Part shown: positions 16,767-41,235 of the stretch, piece by piece
Layout: each line of letters opens with the position of its first letter
How positions within the stretch are numbered: position 1 is the first letter of the stretch
Source of the DNA: Chloroflexota bacterium
Lineage (GTDB): Bacteria > Chloroflexota > UBA11872
Assembly: GCA_011523785.1 (NCBI GenBank)
Contig: WTFW01000193.1
Coordinates: 1 to 62,352, forward strand
Direction of reading: 5' to 3'
Length of the DNA stretch: 62,352 nt
Notes under the pieces: model-generated
What the model saw: the letters and a program-made list of their open reading frames with translations, nothing else
Told to the model about the DNA's origin: nothing
The model's database searches: none
Position numbers and translations under genes: made by a program

Positions 16767-16795
16767 TTGACCGTTCGCTTATTGTCCGGTAACCT
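16767..16795 (+). promoter_or_regulatory. lexA promoter with embedded SOS-type operator
   Basis: -35 TTGACC (16767-16772) and -10 TAACCT (16790-16795) are 17 bp apart. The spacer contains a direct repeat GTTC-N7-GTCC (16773-16787). The same arrangement occurs before dinB, so this is best read as the LexA autoregulatory operator. Bound repressor would cover the spacer of its own promoter. It lies about 90 nt before the lexA start. Confidence 0.65.
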
Positions 16796-18203: not shown

Positions 18204-18314
18204 CGGAAAGCCTCAGCCGCTCAACAACGCTTCGCGACCGGACACTGCATGGGGCCTACGCGTGCAGTCCGTCAAACGACCGTTCGCCGTCGACTGTTCA
18301 CATCCCCTTCGCAT

Positions 18315-18352
18315 GTTCGTCATTTGTCCGTACGTCTTTTGTTCGGTATTAT
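18315..18352 (+). promoter_or_regulatory. dinB promoter with two tandem SOS-type operators
   Basis: Two direct-repeat boxes abut: GTTC-N7-GTCC (18315-18329) and GTAC-N7-GTTC (18330-18344). A promoter fits on them: -35 TTGTCC (18324-18329), a 17-bp spacer filled by box 2, and -10 TATTAT (18347-18352). The first box matches the lexA operator in 12 of its 15 positions, including both GTTC/GTCC halves and the TT before the second half. The -10 ends only 6 nt before the dinB ATG. Confidence 0.68.
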
Positions 18353-18358
18353 TCGGGC

Positions 18359-19612
18359 ATGGACACGACTCGCACGAGCATCCCGGGGCGCCCTTTGCTG
18401 CCCGCTGCCTGGCGCGGACAGCGAGTAATCATGCACGCGGACATGGACGCCTTCTATGCGTCCGTCGAGCAGCGGGACAATCCGGCGCTGCGAGGCCGCC
18501 CCGTCATCGTCGGCGGTCCACGGGATGCCCGGGGCGTCGTAACGGCCGCGTCCTATGAAGCCCGCGCATATGGCGTTCGGGCGGCAATGCCGCTGAGACA
18601 AGCCGCCGGGCTTTGTCCTGACGCTGAGTTCGTGCCGGGCCGCATGCGGCTGTACTCGGACGTTTCGCTTGAGGTGATGCGGATCTTCCGATCTTGCACG
18701 CCGTTGGTGGAGCCCCTGTCGCTGGATGAGGCGTTTCTGGACGTTACGGGCTGCGAGCGTCGCTACGGAAGTCCCGGCGAAATCGCCGAACACGTGCGGG
18801 ACGCGGTCCGAACCGCAGTGGATCTGCCAATTTCGGTGGGTGTGGCGGCTAGCAAGTCGGTCGCCAAGATTGCCTCGACGCTGGCCAAGCCCGACGGGCG
18901 CCGCCTTGTGCCTCCAGGATCCGAGCAGGATTTCCTGGATCCCCTGCCAGTGCGAATGATCTGGGGGGTCGGGCCGAAGAGCGAAGCGCGCCTGGCCGCG
19001 CGCGGCATCCACACCATCGGCGACCTTGCGCGGCACGACCCGGAGCGGATGCGCGAGCTTCGCAGGCCGGCCACCCTGGCGCGCGCTATCGATCCGCGTG
19101 ACGTTGCAAGTGAGCGTACGGCCAAGTCCGTGGGCAACGAGGTGACATTTGGCCGCGACACCAGCGACCGCGAGCTGGTGTTGCGGTATCTGCGACAGCT
19201 TTCGGATCACGTTGGGCGACGGCTGCGCGCTCGAGGACTGACGGGCCGAACGGTCGCTCTCAAGCTGCGATATGCGGACTTCCACACCATCACACGGCAA
19301 GTCACGCTCGACGCGCCGACCGACCAGACGCGCGACGTCTTTGGGGCGGTGCGAGATCTCTTCGCTCGGGAAGTCAACGACCGCGACGTTTACCGGCTCG
19401 TCGGCGTTCACGTCACCGGCATTGGGGCGCAGACCGCGCGGCAACTCGCCTTCAGGATGGGTGACGAGCGCGAACGGAGGCCGCTGGAAACCGCGCTAGA
19501 CGAAGTTCGCGCGCGCTTTGGCGATGCCGTGATCACACATGCCGCCCTGCTGGGATCAAGCGCCCGCATGGACAGCGAACGTTACGCCTGGCGGGAGGAC
19601 GTCCTGGGATGA
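18359..19612 (+). CDS. dinB: DNA polymerase IV (Y-family translesion polymerase)
   Basis: Error-prone lesion-bypass polymerase, 417 residues. The palm carries the metal ligands D28 (HADMDAFYASVE) and D123/E124 (SLDEAFLDV). ISVGVAASKSVAKIASTLAKP is split across the palm/thumb region, IWGVGPK gives the helix-hairpin-helix turn, and a little-finger domain occupies about residues 260-370. The C-terminus lacks an obvious beta-clamp peptide. The ATG at 18359 has no upstream ribosome site and coincides with the expected transcription start, so the mRNA may be leaderless. LexA-type boxes overlap the promoter. Confidence 0.95.
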   Translation: MDTTRTSIPGRPLLPAAWRGQRVIMHADMDAFYASVEQRDNPALRGRPVIVGGPRDARGVVTAASYEARAYGVRAAMPLRQAAGLCPDAEFVPGRMRLYSDVSLEVMRIFRSCTPLVEPLSLDEAFLDVTGCERRYGSPGEIAEHVRDAVRTAVDLPISVGVAASKSVAKIASTLAKPDGRRLVPPGSEQDFLDPLPVRMIWGVGPKSEARLAARGIHTIGDLARHDPERMRELRRPATLARAIDPRDVASERTAKSVGNEVTFGRDTSDRELVLRYLRQLSDHVGRRLRARGLTGRTVALKLRYADFHTITRQVTLDAPTDQTRDVFGAVRDLFAREVNDRDVYRLVGVHVTGIGAQTARQLAFRMGDERERRPLETALDEVRARFGDAVITHAALLGSSARMDSERYAWREDVLG

Positions 19613-19675
19613 CCCGTTGCGTTGATCGGCTCCGGAACGTTGAACCAGGAACCGTTGCCTACAAGGGAGCACCGA

Positions 19676-20233
19676 ATGTCGCGACTGCCCGATGAGTTTC
19701 GCGCCCTGCTCCGCCTAGAAGCGGACAGCGGCCACGCCACAGCCGAGGCTGCGGCGCCGGACACATCCGCCCACCGCATGGCCATGGCCAAGCTTGGCCG
19801 GCTCTATCGCTACGCCTTGCGGCATCCGGCCGGAGGACGGGATGAGGTGCTTCGTATAGTCGCCCGGCAAACGCTGCGTCACGGCCCGGGGCACGTGCTG
19901 GGCCGACGGACGCGCGAAGCCCGGCTCTTCATGAGCTGGGGGCACCAGGTGCACCGCGAGGTGTTTGCGGCGCGCGCCGGCCTGCGCTTCGAACCAGGCA
20001 GAACGCCTCGCCAGCTGGTGGCCGCCTGGCGATTCCAGTTTCCGGTCGCGGACCTGGTGCTACGCGACCTGCATCGACGGATGCGCGGCTACACCCTGGT
20101 CATCGAAGATGGCTCACGCCGCTACGTGCATGACGGGTGCGGTATCCGGCTGGAGACCGTACCGGCGCGTACGCTGTTCGGGACAGCACGAAACCTGGGA
20201 CGGCGTCCTCCACCGCTCTTCGCATCGGCCTAG
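19676..20233 (+). CDS. Basic protein of unknown function, possible divergent DUF4130-type DNA-metabolism protein
   Basis: 185 residues from ATG 19676, preceded by AAGGGA. Very arginine-rich and predicted mostly helical with a C-terminal beta segment (MRGYTLVIEDGSRRYVHDG). The order of segments (VHREVFAARAGLRFEP; VADLVLRDLHRRM; a short hairpin ending in DG) loosely follows the DUF4130 family that often travels with DNA-repair genes. The family's hallmark tryptophans are not clear, so this match is weak. It sits between dinB and the SbcD-like gene on the same strand. Confidence 0.65.
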   Translation: MSRLPDEFRALLRLEADSGHATAEAAAPDTSAHRMAMAKLGRLYRYALRHPAGGRDEVLRIVARQTLRHGPGHVLGRRTREARLFMSWGHQVHREVFAARAGLRFEPGRTPRQLVAAWRFQFPVADLVLRDLHRRMRGYTLVIEDGSRRYVHDGCGIRLETVPARTLFGTARNLGRRPPPLFASA

Positions 20234-20367
20234 GCGCCGAGCTTTCAGGCCACTTTTTCATCGCCCACTGACGACGGCTACGGGCGTAGCGGGTGCTACC
20301 ATCGCTCACGTCAGGCCGTGCGGATTGTGCAGCCAGCGACACGGGGGGCAAGGATGAGCTTGTCTCC

Positions 20368-21465
20368 GTGCGTATCGTTCGGACTCTCGAAGGGCGCGCC
20401 CGTCTCGCCGTAGCGGCCGGGTTTCACCTGGGCGCGCGGCCAGCCGCGCTGGCACCGTCGCAACGCGAACTCTTCAGCACGCTCACTCAGCGCGCCTTTG
20501 CGAGTGTCCTGGACCAGGCGGCGCGCGCCGGGTGCCAGGCCTTTGTCTGTGGTGGCGAGTTGTTTGCGGCCTCGCTTCCGTCGCTTCAAGACGTACGCGC
20601 CGCGATGGCCCCGCTGGGCTCCGCACGGCAAGCCGGCATGACCATCATTGCCAGCGACGAACAGCCAGGCCACGCAACCGACGGCACAAGTTTTCTGGCC
20701 GACGTCGGTCTGATCGACGCTGTGCTGAATGCACGAGGACCCGCATCGGTGCTGGTGTCGGCCGCGAACGTCCAGGTCGCCCTTGTGACCGGCGGCGGAA
20801 GCGGAGATCTGGCAGCAGCCGATCTCATCCTCGCGCTGGATGCGCCCCGCGGCGACACCCTTGAACCGGCGCCGCCGGCCAGCTTTGTTGACACCGTTAT
20901 CGACACCCGCGCCCTCAATGCACCGTCCGATCGCGCGTGGGACGTGCCGGTGATCGAAACCGGCTGGGCCGGTCCATCGCTGGACCGCGAGCGGCGGCCC
21001 GGCTTCGTGATCCTGGACATCGATCCCAGCGCGGGTGTCATCCCCACATTCGTCGAGACCGAAGCCTTGCGACCCGAGCGGGTCGTGATCAAATCACCAC
21101 AGGCGGGCGGCGAGGTTGAGCACACGGTCGCACCGCACCTGGGCGCCTCCGCCATCGTGGACGTCGAGCTGCGCGGGCGGACTTCGCGCTCGGTCTGGCA
21201 CGACGTCGATCCCGCCGGACTGATTGAGCGGGCCGCCGCGGCCGGCACGCTGCTGCGCTTTGCCATCGACCGGTTGGTCGTCGATGACTCACATGGAGAC
21301 GTTGGTGTGACGGAGCGCGCGTCGTTCCTTGTCAATGCCCGGCGCGTGAGCGACGGCCTTGCGGCGGCGGCAGGCGACGACGGTCAACGGGACGCGGTGG
21401 CCGCAGCACGGGCGCGCGTTGTCGAGATCGCCCGCCGCCGAGAACCGGCGGCAGTCATCGCATGA
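20368..21465 (+). CDS. SbcD/Mre11/YhaO-like protein lacking phosphoesterase residues
   Basis: 365 residues from GTG 20368 (AAGGA upstream). The order of segments follows the Mre11/SbcD exonuclease fold, but the metal-ligand positions are changed. The usual ADLHLG is AGFHLG (17-22), the usual AGDLFD is CGGELFA (61-67), and the usual GNHD position reads SDEQ (96-99). A family-like late strand, FVILDIDPSAGVIPTFVE, is kept. It is therefore probably a structural pseudo-nuclease. The last 4 nt overlap the start of the coiled-coil partner (ATGA), the normal SbcD-SbcC or YhaO-YhaN arrangement. An open frame 25 codons longer exists but shows no similarity. Confidence 0.7.
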   Translation: MRIVRTLEGRARLAVAAGFHLGARPAALAPSQRELFSTLTQRAFASVLDQAARAGCQAFVCGGELFAASLPSLQDVRAAMAPLGSARQAGMTIIASDEQPGHATDGTSFLADVGLIDAVLNARGPASVLVSAANVQVALVTGGGSGDLAAADLILALDAPRGDTLEPAPPASFVDTVIDTRALNAPSDRAWDVPVIETGWAGPSLDRERRPGFVILDIDPSAGVIPTFVETEALRPERVVIKSPQAGGEVEHTVAPHLGASAIVDVELRGRTSRSVWHDVDPAGLIERAAAAGTLLRFAIDRLVVDDSHGDVGVTERASFLVNARRVSDGLAAAAGDDGQRDAVAAARARVVEIARRREPAAVIA

Positions 21466-24449
21466 TTTTCCTGGAGCGCCTGGTCGCTCGGCGCGTCGGC
21501 GCGATTGACGATGTCGAGATCGCCTTTGCGCCGCGCGGACTTCACCTGATCGAAGCGTCGCCCGAGGCGTCAATCACGCTAAGGTCCGCTCTTCGCTGCG
21601 CGCTGTTTGGCGACGTGGCGCCGGGATTCGGCGACCGTGACGGCGCGTTGGTGGGTGCGTCCATCGTTGCCGGTGGCGCGTCCTATGCCATCGAGCGGCA
21701 GATTGCGCGTGATGGTCGCCTCACCACGTCCCTGGCACGAGGCGGGCCGTCCGGCCTGGTTCCGACTACCGGCAGCGAACGCATTGAGCGTGAACTCGAA
21801 CGCGTGCTCGGGGCCGATCGTGAGGCAATGGCCGCGCTGATCTGGCCGCCAAGCGAGTTGGAATCCCTGTCGGACCGGCTGCGCGACTTCCTTCGGGCGT
21901 GGCTCGGTTCGCGCCGAATGAACGTGCTGGCGGCCAGCGTTGAGGTGAGCCAGGACCTCCAGGAAGCCGAGCGTGTGGCGTCGCTACACGTCGCGCTGGC
22001 CAAGGCGGCTGAGGCCCGCGACGCAGCCGTTTCCGAGGTCCGACAGCTTGAGTACGGGCGCAAGCGCGACCGGGCCGCGCGCGCCGTTCATCAGCTCGAG
22101 GAAGCCGAGCGCCTGGTCGCCCAGGCCGAGGACGAGCGCGTTCGGATGGCGACGCTGGCTGAAGGTTTTGAGCGCCACGTCCAACGGGCCGAGCAGGCGC
22201 TGGCGCTGGCGCACCTGCTGGACCAGCGGGACGCGGCCATGAAGCGGCTTGAAGCCGCGCGGGCACGGCGAATCGAGCACGAGACGCAGGTCACTGAACT
22301 CAGCGAATTGCGCTCCAAGTTGACGATCAGCGAAGCGCGGTTGACGAAGCTGGAACGCGGCCTGGCCGCTTACGACCGAGCCGACGCGGCGGCCACCGCC
22401 GCCGACCAGGCACGCCGCGCCAGCTCGGCCGTTGGCGACGACGTAGCTGCCCTGGAACGCGCTCGCCAGGAGCTTTCGGCCAGCCGAAGCAAGTCGGAAC
22501 GCCTCGCCGCGCAGGCGAAACGTGCACGGACGCTCAGCGAGCGAGCCAACGAAGAAGCCCATTTGCCCGCCGCACATCGCCTGTGGGGCGAGTGGATGGG
22601 CCAGGCGGCCGAAGATGCGGGTGACGCGGAGGCAGCCGAAGCCGAAGCGTCGGCGCTGCACGAGCAGGTGAGCGCCCTTGAGAACGCGGTTCGCGTCCAG
22701 GAACGCGAGGCCCAGCTACGGGCCGGCTGGCGGCGGCTGGCTGCCGGCGGCGCAGCGGCGGGGCTGGCGGCGGGCGTGTTGGGACTTCTGGCTGTTGCCC
22801 CGCTGGCGCCGCTGGGCCTGGCGGTGGGCATGGTGGGCGCTCTGGCCGGTATCTGGCTGACTCTCGCGGACCGTGGCAACGCCGAGAACTCGGACGAGCT
22901 GGAACGCGAACTGGACCACGTGGCGCGTGCACTCGAACAGACGGAACACCGAATGCTGGCGACCGCCCGGAAAGGGGACGCCCGAGCTCGCATCGAACGC
23001 CAGCTTGACGAGTTGGGCCTGGAGATCCCGTCCGACACCCGCAGGGCCATGGTTCTACGTGACAGTGCCACGACCCGTCTCCGCCACATCGCTGACGGTG
23101 ACCGTCGGGGCAATTCAGCTGAAGTTGGCGTGGAAGCGGATGCCGCGGCGCAGGCCGCCGAAGATGCCGCGCGGGAAGTTCGCCGATTGGAAGCACGCGT
23201 AGCAGCCATGTACCACAGCAACCCGGAACAACAACTGATCGCCACCTCAGCAGAGCGACGTGTGCAACTGGAAACTGCGGCCGACGCCCGACGAGCGGCG
23301 GAGCGCCTGGCCGACGAGTTGCACATCGGGACTTCTCGAGAGGACATTGCGGCGTCGCGACGAGACACGCTGCGCCAGATCCAGGAGCTCCAACAGCAGT
23401 TGAGCGGCGGGCCGGATCTGGAGCTCAAGCGGCAGGTGGCGATCCGGGACGAGTCCCGTGCTTCCGACGACCTCGCCGCACTGGACGTTGAGATATCCAG
23501 GCGGCGCGGAGCGGATACCGACCGCGCGACCGATCGTGCGCGAGCCGTAGCGCTTGCGGAGTTCGCGGCCGTGGCCGCGCACGTTGGAAGCGAGCGGGCC
23601 CACGGCGCCGCGCGCGGCGCTGACCTCCGCCGCCGAACCGTGCGCGCAGCTTCAAGGCGGCATCGGACAGACCTGGCAGCGGCGATGCGGGCGCTGGGAA
23701 TCGACGCCGACGCCAATCCCACCGCGGCCGAAGCGCGGGCCGCCATTCCGGACCTTGACGCCGAGCCGGGCGATTCCGATCAGATTCGACGCTCGCTACG
23801 CCAGGCGCGTGAGGCGGCACGCCGGACCGAGACACGCGTGCAGACATTGGAATTGCGGGCCGGCCTGGACCACACGGACCTTGACCACGCCGACGCCCAA
23901 GACCGCCTGGACCGAGCCTTGCGAGCGCGCCAGGTTCGCGAGATCGGACAGAGCATCGTGCGCGATGCGCTGGACGCCTCGCTGGCGAGCTTGCCGGCGG
24001 CTATCGAACGCGAGTTGCGGATCATCCTGCCGGCCGCCAGCGCCGGCCGTTACTGGGACGCGCGTTGTGGCGAGAGCCTGGATGTGGAGGTGTGGGACGC
24101 GAAGTCGGCCACCTGGCATGCCCCACGCGAACTGGATGGGCCGGGCCGCGAGGGGGTGGGGCGGGCAGTGGCCCTGGCCTTTGCCGCCGCCGGTCCGCCG
24201 CTGGACGCGACGGATCTACCGGCGTTTCTCTGGCTGGAACAGTCGGCAACGGATCACGACGGATCGATCCTGCAAGCCGCGGCGGCGGCCGCCAGCCTGG
24301 GCGCGGCGGCGCAGCGCTATCCACAGGTCATAACAACTGGCCAGTCGCTGGCGGCCAGCCTGGGGCGGTTCGACCGGGTGACACGACTGACCAACGGAAA
24401 CCCGGCCAATGTCATGCAACCGGCCAGCGAAATCCGGGAGGCCGTTTGA
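21462..24449 (+). CDS. SbcC/Rad50/YhaN-like coiled-coil protein with degenerate ATPase motifs
   Basis: 995 residues. The two ends match the SMC/Rad50 head layout: N-terminal MIFLERLVARRVGAIDDVEI and C-terminal LPAFLWLEQSATD. Long coiled-coil arms lie between them, broken by a hydrophobic hairpin (about 424-469, AAGLAAGVLGLLAVAPLAPL and onward) as in YhaN proteins. Where a P-loop GPNEAGKST is expected the sequence is EASPEASITL (31-40), with no invariant lysine or glycines. The Walker B DE is EQ (about 920). The signature loop is LDGPGREGVGRA. No zinc-hook CxxC is seen. ATP hydrolysis is unlikely. A membrane-bound structural role with the SbcD-like neighbour is inferred. Confidence 0.72.
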   Translation: MIFLERLVARRVGAIDDVEIAFAPRGLHLIEASPEASITLRSALRCALFGDVAPGFGDRDGALVGASIVAGGASYAIERQIARDGRLTTSLARGGPSGLVPTTGSERIERELERVLGADREAMAALIWPPSELESLSDRLRDFLRAWLGSRRMNVLAASVEVSQDLQEAERVASLHVALAKAAEARDAAVSEVRQLEYGRKRDRAARAVHQLEEAERLVAQAEDERVRMATLAEGFERHVQRAEQALALAHLLDQRDAAMKRLEAARARRIEHETQVTELSELRSKLTISEARLTKLERGLAAYDRADAAATAADQARRASSAVGDDVAALERARQELSASRSKSERLAAQAKRARTLSERANEEAHLPAAHRLWGEWMGQAAEDAGDAEAAEAEASALHEQVSALENAVRVQEREAQLRAGWRRLAAGGAAAGLAAGVLGLLAVAPLAPLGLAVGMVGALAGIWLTLADRGNAENSDELERELDHVARALEQTEHRMLATARKGDARARIERQLDELGLEIPSDTRRAMVLRDSATTRLRHIADGDRRGNSAEVGVEADAAAQAAEDAAREVRRLEARVAAMYHSNPEQQLIATSAERRVQLETAADARRAAERLADELHIGTSREDIAASRRDTLRQIQELQQQLSGGPDLELKRQVAIRDESRASDDLAALDVEISRRRGADTDRATDRARAVALAEFAAVAAHVGSERAHGAARGADLRRRTVRAASRRHRTDLAAAMRALGIDADANPTAAEARAAIPDLDAEPGDSDQIRRSLRQAREAARRTETRVQTLELRAGLDHTDLDHADAQDRLDRALRARQVREIGQSIVRDALDASLASLPAAIERELRIILPAASAGRYWDARCGESLDVEVWDAKSATWHAPRELDGPGREGVGRAVALAFAAAGPPLDATDLPAFLWLEQSATDHDGSILQAAAAAASLGAAAQRYPQVITTGQSLAASLGRFDRVTRLTNGNPANVMQPASEIREAV

Positions 24450-25210
24450 AGCTCTCCAGCGAGGCCAAACGCCGTGCGTCAAGCAGTGGCGCCAGCGCGC
24501 GCAGGCCGCGCCGGCGGCTCCCCACGCGGTCCGGCAGCGGTCGCCCTCGGATGAAGACTGCGGTTGATGCCAACGCTAGGAACCGAGCGGCAACCGCTTC
24601 TCGCGAGATCACCGCGGGAGGGACACGCCGTATTCGAGTTCGCTCCAGCAATGACGCCGAAACCCCAAAGGCCGCCACGAACTCTCCGGGCAACGGAATT
24701 CGCCGACGCGCGCGGCGAGCGCTGGACGCCGCTGCGCGGAGCGAGGGTGATCCCGACGACCAGTTGCAACTGACGCTGGACTTGAACGAACCGAAACCGC
24801 GCGGCTATGAGGTAACAGCCAAGCCGCCGCGCCAGCGAATCGAAACGACCCGCTGGCTGTGGTGGGCCATGGGTGTAGGCGCCGTGACCTGTCCATTCCT
24901 GCTCGGATTCCAGCTGGTCTTTACCGACCCGGCGCACGGAGCGAATGTGCTGGCCGTCGTGGCTACGATGTCGTTCGGCGCGCTGTTCGCCACCTGGACC
25001 TTTGAGTATTGGCTGCGGCGCGGAACCGCCGCCACCGCACGCAATCTGGCGATCTGGACGCTCACCCGCCATTCCATCCTGGCGTCGGTGGGCGTGGCCG
25101 CGATGGCCGTGAGCGCACTGAATCGCACGGCAAGCTTCGGCCTGCTGCTCCTGGTGATCCTCACGCTGGTCGTGGCCGACATCGTGCTGCGCAGGCTGCG
25201 CATCCGGTAG
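24446..25210 (+). CDS. Four-helix membrane protein with basic disordered N-terminus
   Basis: From TTG 24446, overlapping the upstream stop by 4 nt behind a GGGAGG site, the product is 254 residues; ATG 24551 is the alternative. Residues 1-120 are rich in R, A and S and low in hydrophobics (RRPRRRLPTRSGSGRPR), so probably disordered or nucleic-acid/phospholipid-binding. Four membrane helices follow: WLWWAMGVGAVTCPFLLGF, VLAVVATMSFGALFATW, ILASVGVAAMAVSAL and FGLLLLVILTLVVADIVL. Family unknown. Tight coupling to the YhaN-like gene suggests a shared membrane-associated task. Confidence 0.65.
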   Translation: MKLSSEAKRRASSSGASARRPRRRLPTRSGSGRPRMKTAVDANARNRAATASREITAGGTRRIRVRSSNDAETPKAATNSPGNGIRRRARRALDAAARSEGDPDDQLQLTLDLNEPKPRGYEVTAKPPRQRIETTRWLWWAMGVGAVTCPFLLGFQLVFTDPAHGANVLAVVATMSFGALFATWTFEYWLRRGTAATARNLAIWTLTRHSILASVGVAAMAVSALNRTASFGLLLLVILTLVVADIVLRRLRIR

Positions 25211-25986
25211 TGGACGACGACAAGTCGAACGATCCGTACGCGCGCATCGCCGACCTGTACGAGGCTGAGCACCGCGGCTGGACCGATGACCTGGATCTGT
25301 ATCGAGCGCTGGCAGCGCGGGCCGGCGACCCGGTGCTGGAACTGGGCTGCGGCTCGGGCCGCGTGGCCATCGCCCTGGCCGACGCCGGGTATGACGTGCG
25401 CGGCATCGATATGTCGGAGGCCATGCTGGCGATTGCGCGGGCCAACGTGGCTGGCCGGCAATTGCGCGTTGCCTTTGCCAGCGGCGACATGCGGCACGTC
25501 GCCAGCCACCGCCAGTTTGGCCTCGTCTTCTGCGCGCTGGACACCCTGTTGCATCTGCAGTCCACCCGCGACGTTCTGGACACAATGGCCTCGGCGCACC
25601 GCGTTCTGCGTGCAGGGGGGCTGCTGGCCTTCGACATCGTGAATCCGACGCCGGAAGTGCTGGCCATGGGCGACCGGGTGGTGCGCCACCAGTCGACCTT
25701 CACAGGCCCAGAAGGCGCTGAGGTCACGCACTTCGTGTCCTGGGACATCGATCCGGACGCTCAAACCATCGAAACAACGCATTTTTACGATTGGCTGAGT
25801 GACGGCGGAGCGGTGCGCCGGCGCACAACGTCTTTCCGGCTGCGCTACCTGGAACGGGACGAGGTGGAAGCGGCACTGCGGGCCGCAGGTTTCAAGAGGC
25901 TGGAACTCTACGGAAGCGAGCAGCTCGATCCCTTCGAGCCAGACAGTGACCGCATGATCGTCGTCGCAACCAAACCCGACGCGTAG
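25210..25986 (+). CDS. Class I SAM-dependent methyltransferase
   Basis: 258 residues from GTG 25210, which shares one base with the preceding TAG. Motif I LELGCGSGR (43-51) binds SAM, with the acidic ribose-binding position in VRGIDMSEAML. ALDTLLHL and VLRAGGLLAFDIVNP are motifs II-III. The C-terminal beta-meander (YDWLSDGGAVRRRTTSFRLRY, split by strands) is of the kind found in small-molecule and glycine/sarcosine-type methyltransferases. The substrate is not readable. It ends the long plus-strand series that started at lexA. Confidence 0.85.
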   Translation: MDDDKSNDPYARIADLYEAEHRGWTDDLDLYRALAARAGDPVLELGCGSGRVAIALADAGYDVRGIDMSEAMLAIARANVAGRQLRVAFASGDMRHVASHRQFGLVFCALDTLLHLQSTRDVLDTMASAHRVLRAGGLLAFDIVNPTPEVLAMGDRVVRHQSTFTGPEGAEVTHFVSWDIDPDAQTIETTHFYDWLSDGGAVRRRTTSFRLRYLERDEVEAALRAAGFKRLELYGSEQLDPFEPDSDRMIVVATKPDA

Positions 25987-25989
25987 GCG

Positions 25990-26913
25990 CTAGAACGACC
26001 AGCGGCCTATCGGCCCGTTGCGGCTTCGCCACGCCCGGTAGGCGCCGAGATCACTGACCAGTCGGAGCGTGGATGCGATTGGTGTCAGCCCCTGGCTTCG
26101 CAGCCGACGAAGCAAGGTCCCGCCGGCCAGCGCCAGGTCAACATCAACCGACGAAAGGCCACGGACCAGTGCCGAGTGAGCGGCCGCACGAACCCAAGCA
26201 TCGACGTCTTGATCTCGCGGGGCGCTTACCATGGCCAGGCGAAGGTCCAGCGAGCCACCGGCGGCGGGTATCAACGGATCCGGGTCACAGAGCAGCGTGA
26301 CGTTGGATCCAATGAGTACGTAGCTCGCCGATGACTGCGGCTGAGCATTGATCTTGGCGGCAAGTGTCGGTTCGCGGCCCGGGATTTGGTCGTTGAGGTC
26401 CGAGCACGCGACTTCTCGCCAGGTGCCTGGCTGGACTGGCCCAGTGAGTTTCGCGGCCGCGCCACGCAGACGAACCGTGAGATCGGCCGGACGAAAGCCA
26501 CGGCGTGCGTACATCCCCACGGCGCCTACCGCCGATGGCGCCGCCTCCATGCCAGTGACCGGGCGCCCGCCGGCCTGCAGAAACTCGATCGCGCAGTCCG
26601 TCAACGCGGCGCCCACCCCGGCGCCACGAAAGTCTGGCGCGACGCCCAGGCCGGCAAACCAGGCCGCTTCAGGCTCGACCACCGCAAACACGGCGCCAAC
26701 CGGGCCGTAACCGGGGACCTCGGCAATCCAGGCGGCCGCGGAACCCTGACGCCACCGGCGAACACGGCTCGCGGTCAGCGGCAGATCGGGACCGACCGCC
26801 GACGCAATCGCTCCGGCGTCGGGCGTTCCGTACGCGGCGCGCAGCAACCGGGCCGCCGCCTCGGCGTCATCGTCGCGCATGCGACGGACCCTTGCGCGCG
26901 TGTTTTGGTTCAA
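25990..26913 (-). CDS. GNAT family N-acetyltransferase with C-terminal extension
   Basis: An acetyl-CoA-binding GNAT domain (about residues 1-170) starts at RVRRMRDDDAEAAARLL and has the A-motif APDFRGAGVGAALTD (Q/RxxGxG/A loop), then GMYARRGFRP. The remaining 140 residues form a second domain without a clear motif (LRLAMVSAPRDQDVDAW; LRSQGLTPIASTLRLV), possibly a degenerate second GNAT. I use TTG 26913. The frame is open to ATG 27000, but that would overlap the divergent aminotransferase start. Substrate unknown. Confidence 0.72.
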   Translation of the reverse strand: MNQNTRARVRRMRDDDAEAAARLLRAAYGTPDAGAIASAVGPDLPLTASRVRRWRQGSAAAWIAEVPGYGPVGAVFAVVEPEAAWFAGLGVAPDFRGAGVGAALTDCAIEFLQAGGRPVTGMEAAPSAVGAVGMYARRGFRPADLTVRLRGAAAKLTGPVQPGTWREVACSDLNDQIPGREPTLAAKINAQPQSSASYVLIGSNVTLLCDPDPLIPAAGGSLDLRLAMVSAPRDQDVDAWVRAAAHSALVRGLSSVDVDLALAGGTLLRRLRSQGLTPIASTLRLVSDLGAYRAWRSRNGPIGRWSF

Positions 26914-39036: not shown

Positions 39037-41235
39037 CTACAGATCCGTTCGGTAGACGTAGCGAACATCCCAGAGTCCGAACAGCGTGGGCGTCAGGTTG
39101 CCAAACACATTGCGCACGGCAGTAAGCCGCTCCGAGTGCGTCGTGTAGATCACGGGCACGTTGTCAGCCACAATCTCCTGCGCCTCGTGGTAAAGCCGAA
39201 CGCGCTGCTCGTGATCCAGCTCCTGGCTGCCCCGAATGAACAGGGAGTCGATGTCGGCCTCCCAGGTCGTGGCCGGTTCGGACTGGTTCGGGTTCCAGAG
39301 ATGCAGCGCCTCGCCGCTGTGCCAGAGCGCGATGCTGAAGTGGGGTTCCGAACTGCCGCCGAAGCCAATCAGGATCGATTCCCAACTGTAGCTAGTGGTC
39401 AACTGGTCGACGAGCTCGCCGAAGTCAATCACCTCAATGTCGCCCTGAATGCCGATGCTGGTAAGACCGTCCTGGATGATCTCCAGCACTCGGAGGCGAA
39501 CTTCATTGCGCGAGTTGGTCGTCAACCTGAACCTGATGTTGTTGCCGGCGTAGTCCTCGCGGATGCCGTCACCGTCCCCATCCATCCAGCCCAGGCCGTC
39601 AAGGATGGCGTTGGCCTCTTCGATGTCGTATTCGTAGCGCTGCACGTTCGGGTTGTGGAAGTCGCCCGCGGCCGGACTGACGAAGGCCCACTGCGGGTAG
39701 CCCAATCCATGATTGACATCGCGGATGATGGCGTTCTTGTCCACCGCATGCGCCACGGCCTGCCTGAATCGCGTGTTCTCGAACCAGCGCAGCTTTTCGG
39801 GCGCCACGAACGGCTCACCGGACTCGGCGTCGCTGCCAGGGTTCACGTTGAAGACGAGGAATCTCGAACCGAACGCTGGCCCGCGACTGTAGAGCGTGAA
39901 GTTCTCCTCCCCCTGTAACGGATCGAGCGTCGCGAACTCCTCGCCCAGCACGCCGTGGACGTCCGTCTCACCCGACCGGAACATCGGAAGTTCATCAGCC
40001 AGGCCGTCGACGATTTCGTACCTGACCTCCTCCAGGTATGGCAGCCGGTTCCCGGCGCTGTCGGTGAGCCAGTAGTTGGGGTTGCGCCGCAGGACGATGC
40101 GCTCATCGTGCTCGAGGACTGCAATGGTGAAAGGACCTGTGCCGATGATCTCGGTCGGGTCGGTGTCGATGCCCCAGACCGAATTAAATGTCCCGTCGTC
40201 CACGTGCGGTTCGAGGATATGCCGGGGATATATAGCGTTGCCCATGGAACGCAAGAAGGGCGCAAATGGCACGGGCAGTACGAACTGGACGGTGTAGTCG
40301 TCGATGGTGCTGACGGTCATGCGCTCTTCGCGCCACGAGGCGGACTCCTCGTCGAAGACCCGGAATGTGAAGGAGGCGCGATCACCGGTCGGGAGGTCGT
40401 CGTTGTAGATGACGCGATTGAAGGTGAAGTCCACGTCGTGAGCCGTAAACGGCTGGCCGTCATGCCAACTCACGTCCCGACGCAGGTGGAACGTCCAGGT
40501 CAGCCCGTCGTCCGAGTGCTCCCAGGATTGCGCCAGACTCGGCTCGACCTGGTTGTTCAGCCAGGAGGTCTCGGTGAGCCCCTCGAACAGATAGCCGAGG
40601 ATTCCGGTTGAGGACGAGTCGTTGGCCAGGGCCAGGTTCAAGGTCAGCGGTCCGCCGATGGTGGAATAGGTGACGCTCCCACCCGGCGTGCCCACGGTGT
40701 ATTCGAAGGCCTCGGCATTGGCTTGCAATTCGGCGACGGTCGCGCTGCGAGGCCCGGGTGCGGTGTCGGCAGCGGGCGGTGCGACCAGTGGAGTGGTGGC
40801 GTATGCCCACGCCTCGGCCGTCTGATCGCTGTCGGCTCCGAAGGTCTGAACCAGCGGGCCGGGCAGATCGTCGGCGGTCACCGTGTAAGAGGTGAGCACG
40901 ATCAGGGATTCGTGGGTCGCCAGGTCGCCCAACTGCAACGGCGGGTAGCCCGCGTAGTTCGGTGTGGGGCGATCCGTCTGGTATGGGTAGTGCAGCAGGA
41001 AGAGACCGGTCAGCATGGCGCCGCCGGTGTTCGAGATTCGGACCCTGCAGTCCAGGGTGTCGTCGGGCGCTGCCGACGCACCGTCGCAGGTGGCGCTGAC
41101 TGACAGGCCCGGCGCGCCGGAGTGCGACGCGGCCGCGTTCGACGGGCTCACAACCAGGGCTGCCACCGCAGCGAGAACTGCCAGGATGACGGCAAGACGG
41201 GTTAAACGGAATCGGGTCACACGGGTAGCAGACAT
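39037..41235 (-). CDS. ABC substrate-binding protein, family 5, with N-terminal beta-sandwich
   Basis: 732 residues from ATG 41235. A signal peptide (LAVILAVLAAVAALVVSPSNA) has no lipobox cysteine. Residues of about 35-110 resemble a CARDB/DUF11-like secreted beta-sandwich (SATCDGASAAPDDTLDCRVRI; ISNTGGAMLTGL). A spacer leads into a full SBP_bac_5 domain (LNNQVEPSLAQSWEHSDDGL; TWTFHLRRDVSWHDGQPFTA; ending near PVIYTTHSERL). This domain binds oligopeptides, nickel or other solutes for ABC import. No permease or ATPase genes are adjacent. The N-terminal fusion is unusual. Confidence 0.85.
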   Translation of the reverse strand: MSATRVTRFRLTRLAVILAVLAAVAALVVSPSNAAASHSGAPGLSVSATCDGASAAPDDTLDCRVRISNTGGAMLTGLFLLHYPYQTDRPTPNYAGYPPLQLGDLATHESLIVLTSYTVTADDLPGPLVQTFGADSDQTAEAWAYATTPLVAPPAADTAPGPRSATVAELQANAEAFEYTVGTPGGSVTYSTIGGPLTLNLALANDSSSTGILGYLFEGLTETSWLNNQVEPSLAQSWEHSDDGLTWTFHLRRDVSWHDGQPFTAHDVDFTFNRVIYNDDLPTGDRASFTFRVFDEESASWREERMTVSTIDDYTVQFVLPVPFAPFLRSMGNAIYPRHILEPHVDDGTFNSVWGIDTDPTEIIGTGPFTIAVLEHDERIVLRRNPNYWLTDSAGNRLPYLEEVRYEIVDGLADELPMFRSGETDVHGVLGEEFATLDPLQGEENFTLYSRGPAFGSRFLVFNVNPGSDAESGEPFVAPEKLRWFENTRFRQAVAHAVDKNAIIRDVNHGLGYPQWAFVSPAAGDFHNPNVQRYEYDIEEANAILDGLGWMDGDGDGIREDYAGNNIRFRLTTNSRNEVRLRVLEIIQDGLTSIGIQGDIEVIDFGELVDQLTTSYSWESILIGFGGSSEPHFSIALWHSGEALHLWNPNQSEPATTWEADIDSLFIRGSQELDHEQRVRLYHEAQEIVADNVPVIYTTHSERLTAVRNVFGNLTPTLFGLWDVRYVYRTDL

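Follow-up and report, generated by a model that had tools for sequence, protein, structure and literature searches.

What becomes of an ATP-driven nuclease when the catalytic residues of both of its subunits are lost while both genes stay open? This question is raised by a 62,352-nucleotide stretch of a 3.3-megabase draft genome of a Chloroflexota bacterium (contig WTFW01000193.1 of assembly GCA_011523785.1; the whole stretch is called the window), which encodes on its forward strand a pair related to Mre11-Rad50/SbcCD. The first gene, D, specifies a pseudo-Mre11/SbcD subunit of 365 amino acids (aa) and runs from a GTG at 20368 to a TGA at 21465; the second, C, specifies a pseudo-Rad50/SbcC subunit of 995 aa and runs from an ATG at 21462 to a TGA at 24449. 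The exact start codon of D is uncertain, a second in-frame GTG lying at 20293, and its residues are numbered here from 20362. The Mre11-Rad50 complex is regarded as an ATP-driven nuclease, for which tethering and signalling roles apart from catalysis have long been discussed. In the present pair both activities have apparently been removed by evolution, in a visible order and with the architecture kept, and the pair forms a natural separation-of-function system: with both activities gone, any role remaining to it must come from structure alone.

Catalytic sites of the two subunits

Where intact relatives of the same class carry ADNHLN, AGDTFD and GNHD, the D subunit of the window reads AGFHLG, CGGELFA and ASDEQ, and one of its eight aligned active-site residues is retained. 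In C, the former P-loop (residues 29-40, 21546-21581, + strand; LIEASPEASITL) is without G-K-S/T, reading LIEASPEAS-ITL where the intact class relatives have LIEGNNEAGKSTL, and the former Walker B strand (residues 920-933, 24219-24260, + strand; PAFLWLEQSATDHD) reads FLWLEQ as against their FLFLDEP. An earlier sequence-only reading of this DNA had pointed to two fully open frames with a 4-nucleotide (nt) overlap, to the replaced motifs of D and to the loss of the P-loop and Walker B motif in C; all of this was borne out, and the signature SGGTQ and the Q- and H-loop residues of C proved to be gone as well.

The losses extend over the whole family of the window, represented by 19 genomes (13 of genus g1 and six of genus g2). 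All 18 D subunits counted retain zero or one of the eight active-site residues (motifs I-V), and all 19 C subunits retain zero to three of the 11 catalytic residues of the Walker A, Q-loop, signature, Walker B and H-loop motifs, the residue numbers and roles being those of the known enzymes. The P-loop lysine is present in none of the 19, the window included, and the alignment shows the loop itself to be shorter by one residue; motifs III-V of D vary widely among the members. The D of G010, which lies in two contig pieces, was excluded from the residue counts and from the D tree, that of G005 is without its first residues, and the YhaN-type row of G002 was set aside in the counts, its motifs being intact on direct reading; throughout, a genome was left uncounted wherever its contig ends before the place in question. 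A CxxC zinc hook was found in 0 of the 19 C subunits, a weak test, as four intact SbcC-type proteins that were scanned carry C-x6-C and no CxxC. The status of D and C as pseudoenzymes is thus well supported, and decay in one genome only is ruled out, since every genome of the family carries the pair in its dead form. A C that is 97% identical to that of the window is encoded on the public contig JAPPFO010000287.1 (Chloroflexota bacterium isolate RHO1_bin_32).

Descent, distribution and order of loss

Neither D nor C of the window has a Pfam match at E<=1. At E<=0.1, 20 aligned D subunits gave no phosphoesterase and 21 aligned C subunits gave scattered AAA matches only (AAA_23 in 2 of 21). AAA_27 (PF13514), the family used as a test for the YhaO/YhaN type, did not match the window's C at E<=1 and matched one of the 21 aligned C subunits (the family plus two rows from its sister family of the same order) at E 0.0042. 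D weakly matches the NCBIfam Mre11 model (E 6.5e-4, far below the cut-off of that model), and PADLOC at E<=0.1 returned no match for D, for C or for the small hydrophobic protein encoded downstream. The 20-sequence D profile matches the Mre11 structure of P. furiosus (1ii7) at E 1.2e-9, and the 21-sequence C profile matches the Rad50 structure 3qf7, presumably from T. maritima, at E 1.4e-10 with the former P-loop in register. Because each profile held two rows from the sister family, whose C retains the P-loop, the search was repeated with profiles of the window's family only, which still reached Mre11 at E 2.5e-5 and Rad50 at E 6.1e-4. Such matches to solved structures place the homology beyond chance despite the lack of Pfam matches. 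D also aligns with the profile of intact YhaO-type proteins (E 6.7e-9, 255 columns).

The genome of the window possesses two further pairs, an intact SbcCD-type pair (contig C79) and an intact YhaO/YhaN-type pair (contig C151) with the motifs GPNESGKS, FLDEM, ADIHLD, GDLFD, GNHD and GHIH. In a tree of C heads, a single group (support 99/97) unites the family, its sister family and the intact class pairs; within it the two families join at 90/70, and it stands apart from both the YhaO/YhaN-type pairs and SbcCD. A quick D tree gave the same split from both paralogues and did not settle how the sister family relates to the intact class pairs (support 0.06). Because of several long branches, with a program warning that such branches meet, the split is surer than the inner order. 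The trees place the pair in a third, separate Mre11-Rad50 subfamily; a recent duplication of the genome's own YhaO/YhaN pair is ruled out, as D and C fall outside that clade in both subunit trees.

Known systems resemble the pair to differing degrees. Like SbcCD/Mre11-Rad50, the pair has homologous subunits, adjacent overlapping genes and two head halves, which flank a long stretch predicted as helical; unlike it, the nuclease and ATPase motifs are missing and a hydrophobic hairpin occupies the position of the SbcC/Rad50 hook. With the pair of contig C151 it shares similar size, gene order, the 4-nt overlap and a central hydrophobic hairpin, yet that pair keeps all motifs and belongs to a separate clade. 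The name YhaO/YhaN-like, given in the sequence-only reading, holds for the architecture and fails for the identity. The C-head tree and a shared VWDER-type segment point to the intact third pairs of the class and of some other Chloroflexota as the nearest catalytic relatives; those of the class differ in keeping all catalytic residues and in a longer C (1121-1293 aa as read, those of G032 and G039 ending at a contig edge). As a separate observation on the paralogues, G000 and G010 are nearly identical in D and C (synonymous divergence, dS, 0.01-0.03) and strongly different in their intact YhaO/YhaN-type pair (dS 0.5-0.95), a pattern suggestive of exchange or recombination of the intact pair.

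At E<=1e-3, 24 of 61 genomes yielded D and 22 yielded C, matches outside the family being weak and some of them representing intact relatives. Both subunits occur in all 19 genomes of the family and are adjacent in 18, the D of G010 being split across two contig ends. With a profile of the family plus its sister, all 24 genomes of the order are matched, the D of G023 itself being a contig-end fragment, and 32 of the 41 genomes of the class match at 1e-12; unmatched at that threshold were G023, all six genomes of family f4, and G024 and G036 of family f3.

Along this range the losses appear in steps. In the class families f3 and f5, all nine pairs (G026, G028, G030, G032, G034, G037-G040) have eight of eight catalytic residues in D and 11 of 11 in C. 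In the sister family, the four whole D copies retain one or two of eight, and the D fragment of G023, readable in motifs I-III only, has lost both motif I residues and retained GDLFD; the C of this family keeps the P-loop GK[ST] in all four copies with a readable N-terminus and has exchanged the catalytic Walker B glutamate for aspartate in four of five. Intact nuclease motifs were seen in no D examined from either family, and no ortholog with intact motifs, which would have pointed to decay of a single sequence, was found within the family of the window. The simplest history would be that the nuclease was lost in the ancestor of the order and the ATPase then in the family of the window, although parallel losses in the lineages could have produced the same pattern. 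The C of G022, in the sister family, retains both the Walker B DE and the P-loop beside a dead D and may represent an ATPase-only intermediate.

Across the phylum, at least 30 of 400 genomes match at 1e-9; only the best five candidates per genome were scored, so misses are likely, and G020, G021 and G023 of the sister family were indeed missed here and recovered by other searches. Five D matches fell outside the class, of which three are intact by eye, and a P-loop-bearing C adjoins D in three of the five. Among these outside relatives, G061 is altered at GTHD and AGYHH and G253 at GDVH, the rest being intact; such isolated changes are possibly early steps of independent loss.

Maintenance and possible role

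The dead pair shows the marks of genes that are kept. The ratio of nonsynonymous to synonymous substitution rates (dN/dS) is 0.18-0.35 for D (eight genome pairs) and 0.17-0.28 for C in eight of nine genome pairs, so that 16 of 17 whole-gene comparisons lie between 0.17 and 0.35. The 4-nt overlap is exact in all 18 pairs of the family that were tested and in three of four of the sister family, and no internal stop occurs in the 19 C subunits or in D of the 19 genomes (that of G010 in two pieces, that of G005 with its start cut). These data point to a pair kept mostly by purifying selection, and the sequence-only reading of a maintained, non-enzymatic SbcD/SbcC derivative stands up, with dead catalytic sites in each of the 18 D and 19 C subunits counted. 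In 15-residue windows, conservation of D peaks at 319-333, 13-27 and 67-81. The joint most conserved stretch, 319-333 (21316-21360, + strand; RASFLVNARRVSDGL), lies in a predicted C-terminal helix (helices at 316-336 and 340-360 in a low-confidence model, in a conserved region), and the corresponding region of Mre11 is the one that binds the coil base of Rad50. In C the top window is 913-927, in the former Walker B strand, followed by 532-546, 361-375, 752-766, 787-801, 144-158 (coil base), 569-583 and 1-15 (N-terminus).

The second feature bearing on function is the hairpin, which had been noticed from the sequence and was found again at C residues 426-469 (22737-22868, + strand) as 44 uncharged, hydrophobic residues, a putative membrane hairpin amid a region (130-855) that is mostly helix in a low-confidence single-sequence model. 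A central charge-free run of 42-52 residues occurs in all 19 C subunits of the family and a small hydrophobic protein gene adjoins the pair in all 19 genomes, which makes membrane tethering plausible.

From these elements we propose, with about even confidence, that D and C form a maintained pseudo-Mre11-Rad50 complex which serves as an ATP-independent, membrane-anchored scaffold. The two subunits would still assemble as D2C2 through the retained C-terminal helices of D and the coil base of C, with ATP cycling and DNA cutting both gone. The hairpin, at the tip of the coiled coil, would fix this static scaffold or tether in the membrane, the adjacent small membrane protein might be a partner of the scaffold, and the assembly could keep DNA (or else a repair protein) close to the membrane. 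A more detailed form of this proposal, which we offer more tentatively and consider rather less probable than its general form, holds that the complex became wholly non-enzymatic in two steps (nuclease, then ATPase) and is now a tether or sensor of DNA, independent of ATP and anchored in the membrane, with a membrane protein dedicated to it and two active paralogous complexes beside it.

Several observations weigh against a maintained, membrane-anchored complex of this kind. In the near-identical genomes G000 and G010, dN/dS reaches 0.66 for C and about 0.1 and 0.75 for the two pieces of D, with few changes involved. The intact YhaO/YhaN-type paralogues show 0.12-0.22 (16 comparisons), and D and C lie somewhat higher, so their constraint looks looser; identity within the genus is likewise 57-83% for D as against 88-92% for lexA (G010, G002 and G003 set aside). 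Three of the most conserved C windows (532-546, 361-375 and 752-766) sit in the arms, with no role assigned to them. A central hydropathy peak is seen in just two of five C subunits of the sister family and in three of nine intact class C subunits, so the hairpin is not general in the subfamily. Single-sequence AlphaFold2 models were poor, with a mean predicted local distance difference test (pLDDT) score of 43.6 for D and 47.8 for C, and in a Foldseek search with the model of D nothing reached E<=0.001, Mre11 ranking first at E 0.065. Finally, full-length C did not align with the intact YhaN-type profile (probability 1.6%), and as that comparison was useless we relied on head segments and on the match to the Rad50 profile.

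Pseudoenzymes often restrain their active relatives, and the dead pair might accordingly be a regulatory decoy that mixes or competes with the cell's own intact YhaO/YhaN or SbcCD. Two intact paralogous pairs do coexist in the window's genome, and the dead C (995 aa) is close in length to the intact YhaN-type C (993 aa), both with a central hairpin. Nevertheless, we think this unlikely: the dead pair comes from another subfamily that separated long ago, its two subunits are kept together in all 19 genomes, which favours a homotypic complex, and no YhaN-type C was found in G003 (76% complete). We give a similarly small chance to a repurposing off DNA, in which the pair would serve the neighbouring membrane protein and methyltransferase as a coiled-coil scaffold anchored in the membrane and would have no role on nucleic acids. 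In its favour, the linkage of D and C to these two genes is wider than that to lexA and dinB, reaching the sister family (G020, G021, G023), and a LexA-type box is missing before D; on the other hand, the heads still match Mre11 and Rad50 profiles, several conserved stretches fall in the head core and coil base, and the pair lies near lexA in nearly all testable genomes of the family.

A divergent but active enzyme, in which unrecognised substitute residues bind metal or ATP, is highly improbable: the former Walker B aspartate position is acidic in 18 of 19 C subunits (Glu in g1, Asp in g2) and 913-927 is the best conserved stretch of C, but the P-loop lysine is absent from all 19, the loop is shortened and motifs III-V of D have diverged widely. 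Least credible of all is a functionless pseudogene pair in slow decay, which the faster evolution relative to neighbouring genes and the values of 0.66-0.75 in G000/G010 might recall, as it is contradicted by the open frames, the invariable overlap and the low dN/dS of the other whole-gene comparisons.

A whole family of uncultured Chloroflexota keeps the dead pair undamaged, which suggests re-use of a DNA-break repair complex as a non-enzymatic, probably membrane-anchored scaffold. The case also suggests that two-subunit enzymes can become paired pseudoenzymes together. The B-subunits of eukaryotic DNA polymerases are an inactivated Mre11-type phosphoesterase fold re-used structurally; unlike D and C, they have no Rad50-type partner and belong to an unrelated complex. 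Among the literature matches listed, mostly without subscription papers and without bioRxiv preprints, there was no catalytically dead Mre11-Rad50/SbcCD pair, nor anything on YhaN together with SbcC or on such pseudoenzymes.

Neighbouring genes and LexA-type boxes

Directly downstream of C lies the gene of the small hydrophobic protein (24803-25210, + strand, with a provisional start), a putative multi-pass membrane protein by eye with no Pfam match. It is present in all 19 genomes of the family, the window counted, and in three of four testable genomes of the sister family, being missing from G019, while the contig of G022 ends first. Next comes a syntenic class I S-adenosylmethionine-dependent methyltransferase gene (25237-25986, + strand, with a start likewise provisional), found in 18 of 18 testable genomes of the family and three of four of the sister family (G020, G021 and G023, not G019); its product partially matches PADLOC mad2 at E 1.2e-19, perhaps through the methyltransferase domain only. 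For methyltransferase neighbours at class level, with 33-34% identity, orthology is not claimed. The order D, C, small hydrophobic protein, methyltransferase, aminotransferase is common to the two families. The same aminotransferase lies downstream in G019, G020 and G021, in G021 together with tmk and spoIIIAA-like genes, and these shared genes identify the locus of the sister family as orthologous.

Homologs with the same changes next to lexA and dinB were found across the family: lexA lies near the pair in 16 of the 17 genomes that could be tested, dinB in 16 of 18, G002 having neither and G003 no dinB. The position beside LexA/DinB named in the sequence-only reading thus stands within the family and is confined to it, the sister-family loci of G019-G022 having a hisC-like aminotransferase (by eye) upstream in place of lexA and dinB.

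In the window, a LexA-type box, a GTTC-N7-GTCC direct repeat, precedes lexA (16772-16791, + strand), and two overlapping boxes precede dinB (18314-18348, + strand), the one at 18314 being weaker than that at 18329. Of the 18 genomes scanned, 15 have the box CGTTCGNTTATTGTCCGGTA or a close variant upstream of lexA and 12 upstream of dinB, and the lexA and dinB sites are its two top matches in the window. This putative LexA box of the family, a direct repeat followed by GGTA with variants at dinB, resembles the alphaproteobacterial direct-repeat LexA box. Within 300 nt before D, such a box was found in none of 17 genomes, leaving SOS control of the pair unproven, although read-through into D and C from dinB is possible. 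The canonical SOS box CGAACN4GTTCG (<=2 mismatches) gave no signal, with 49 matches in the window against 49.6 expected, and a promoter and terminator scan of 19500-26000 yielded nothing above chance. One weak match to the lexA/dinB-type box lies at 39099-39118 on the - strand, with a score of 11 against 30-34 for the two best. Between dinB and D, 19622-20233 encodes a weakly DUF4130-like protein (E 0.0084, below the cut-off), whose identity within g1 is 72-100% over the nine genomes that yielded it.

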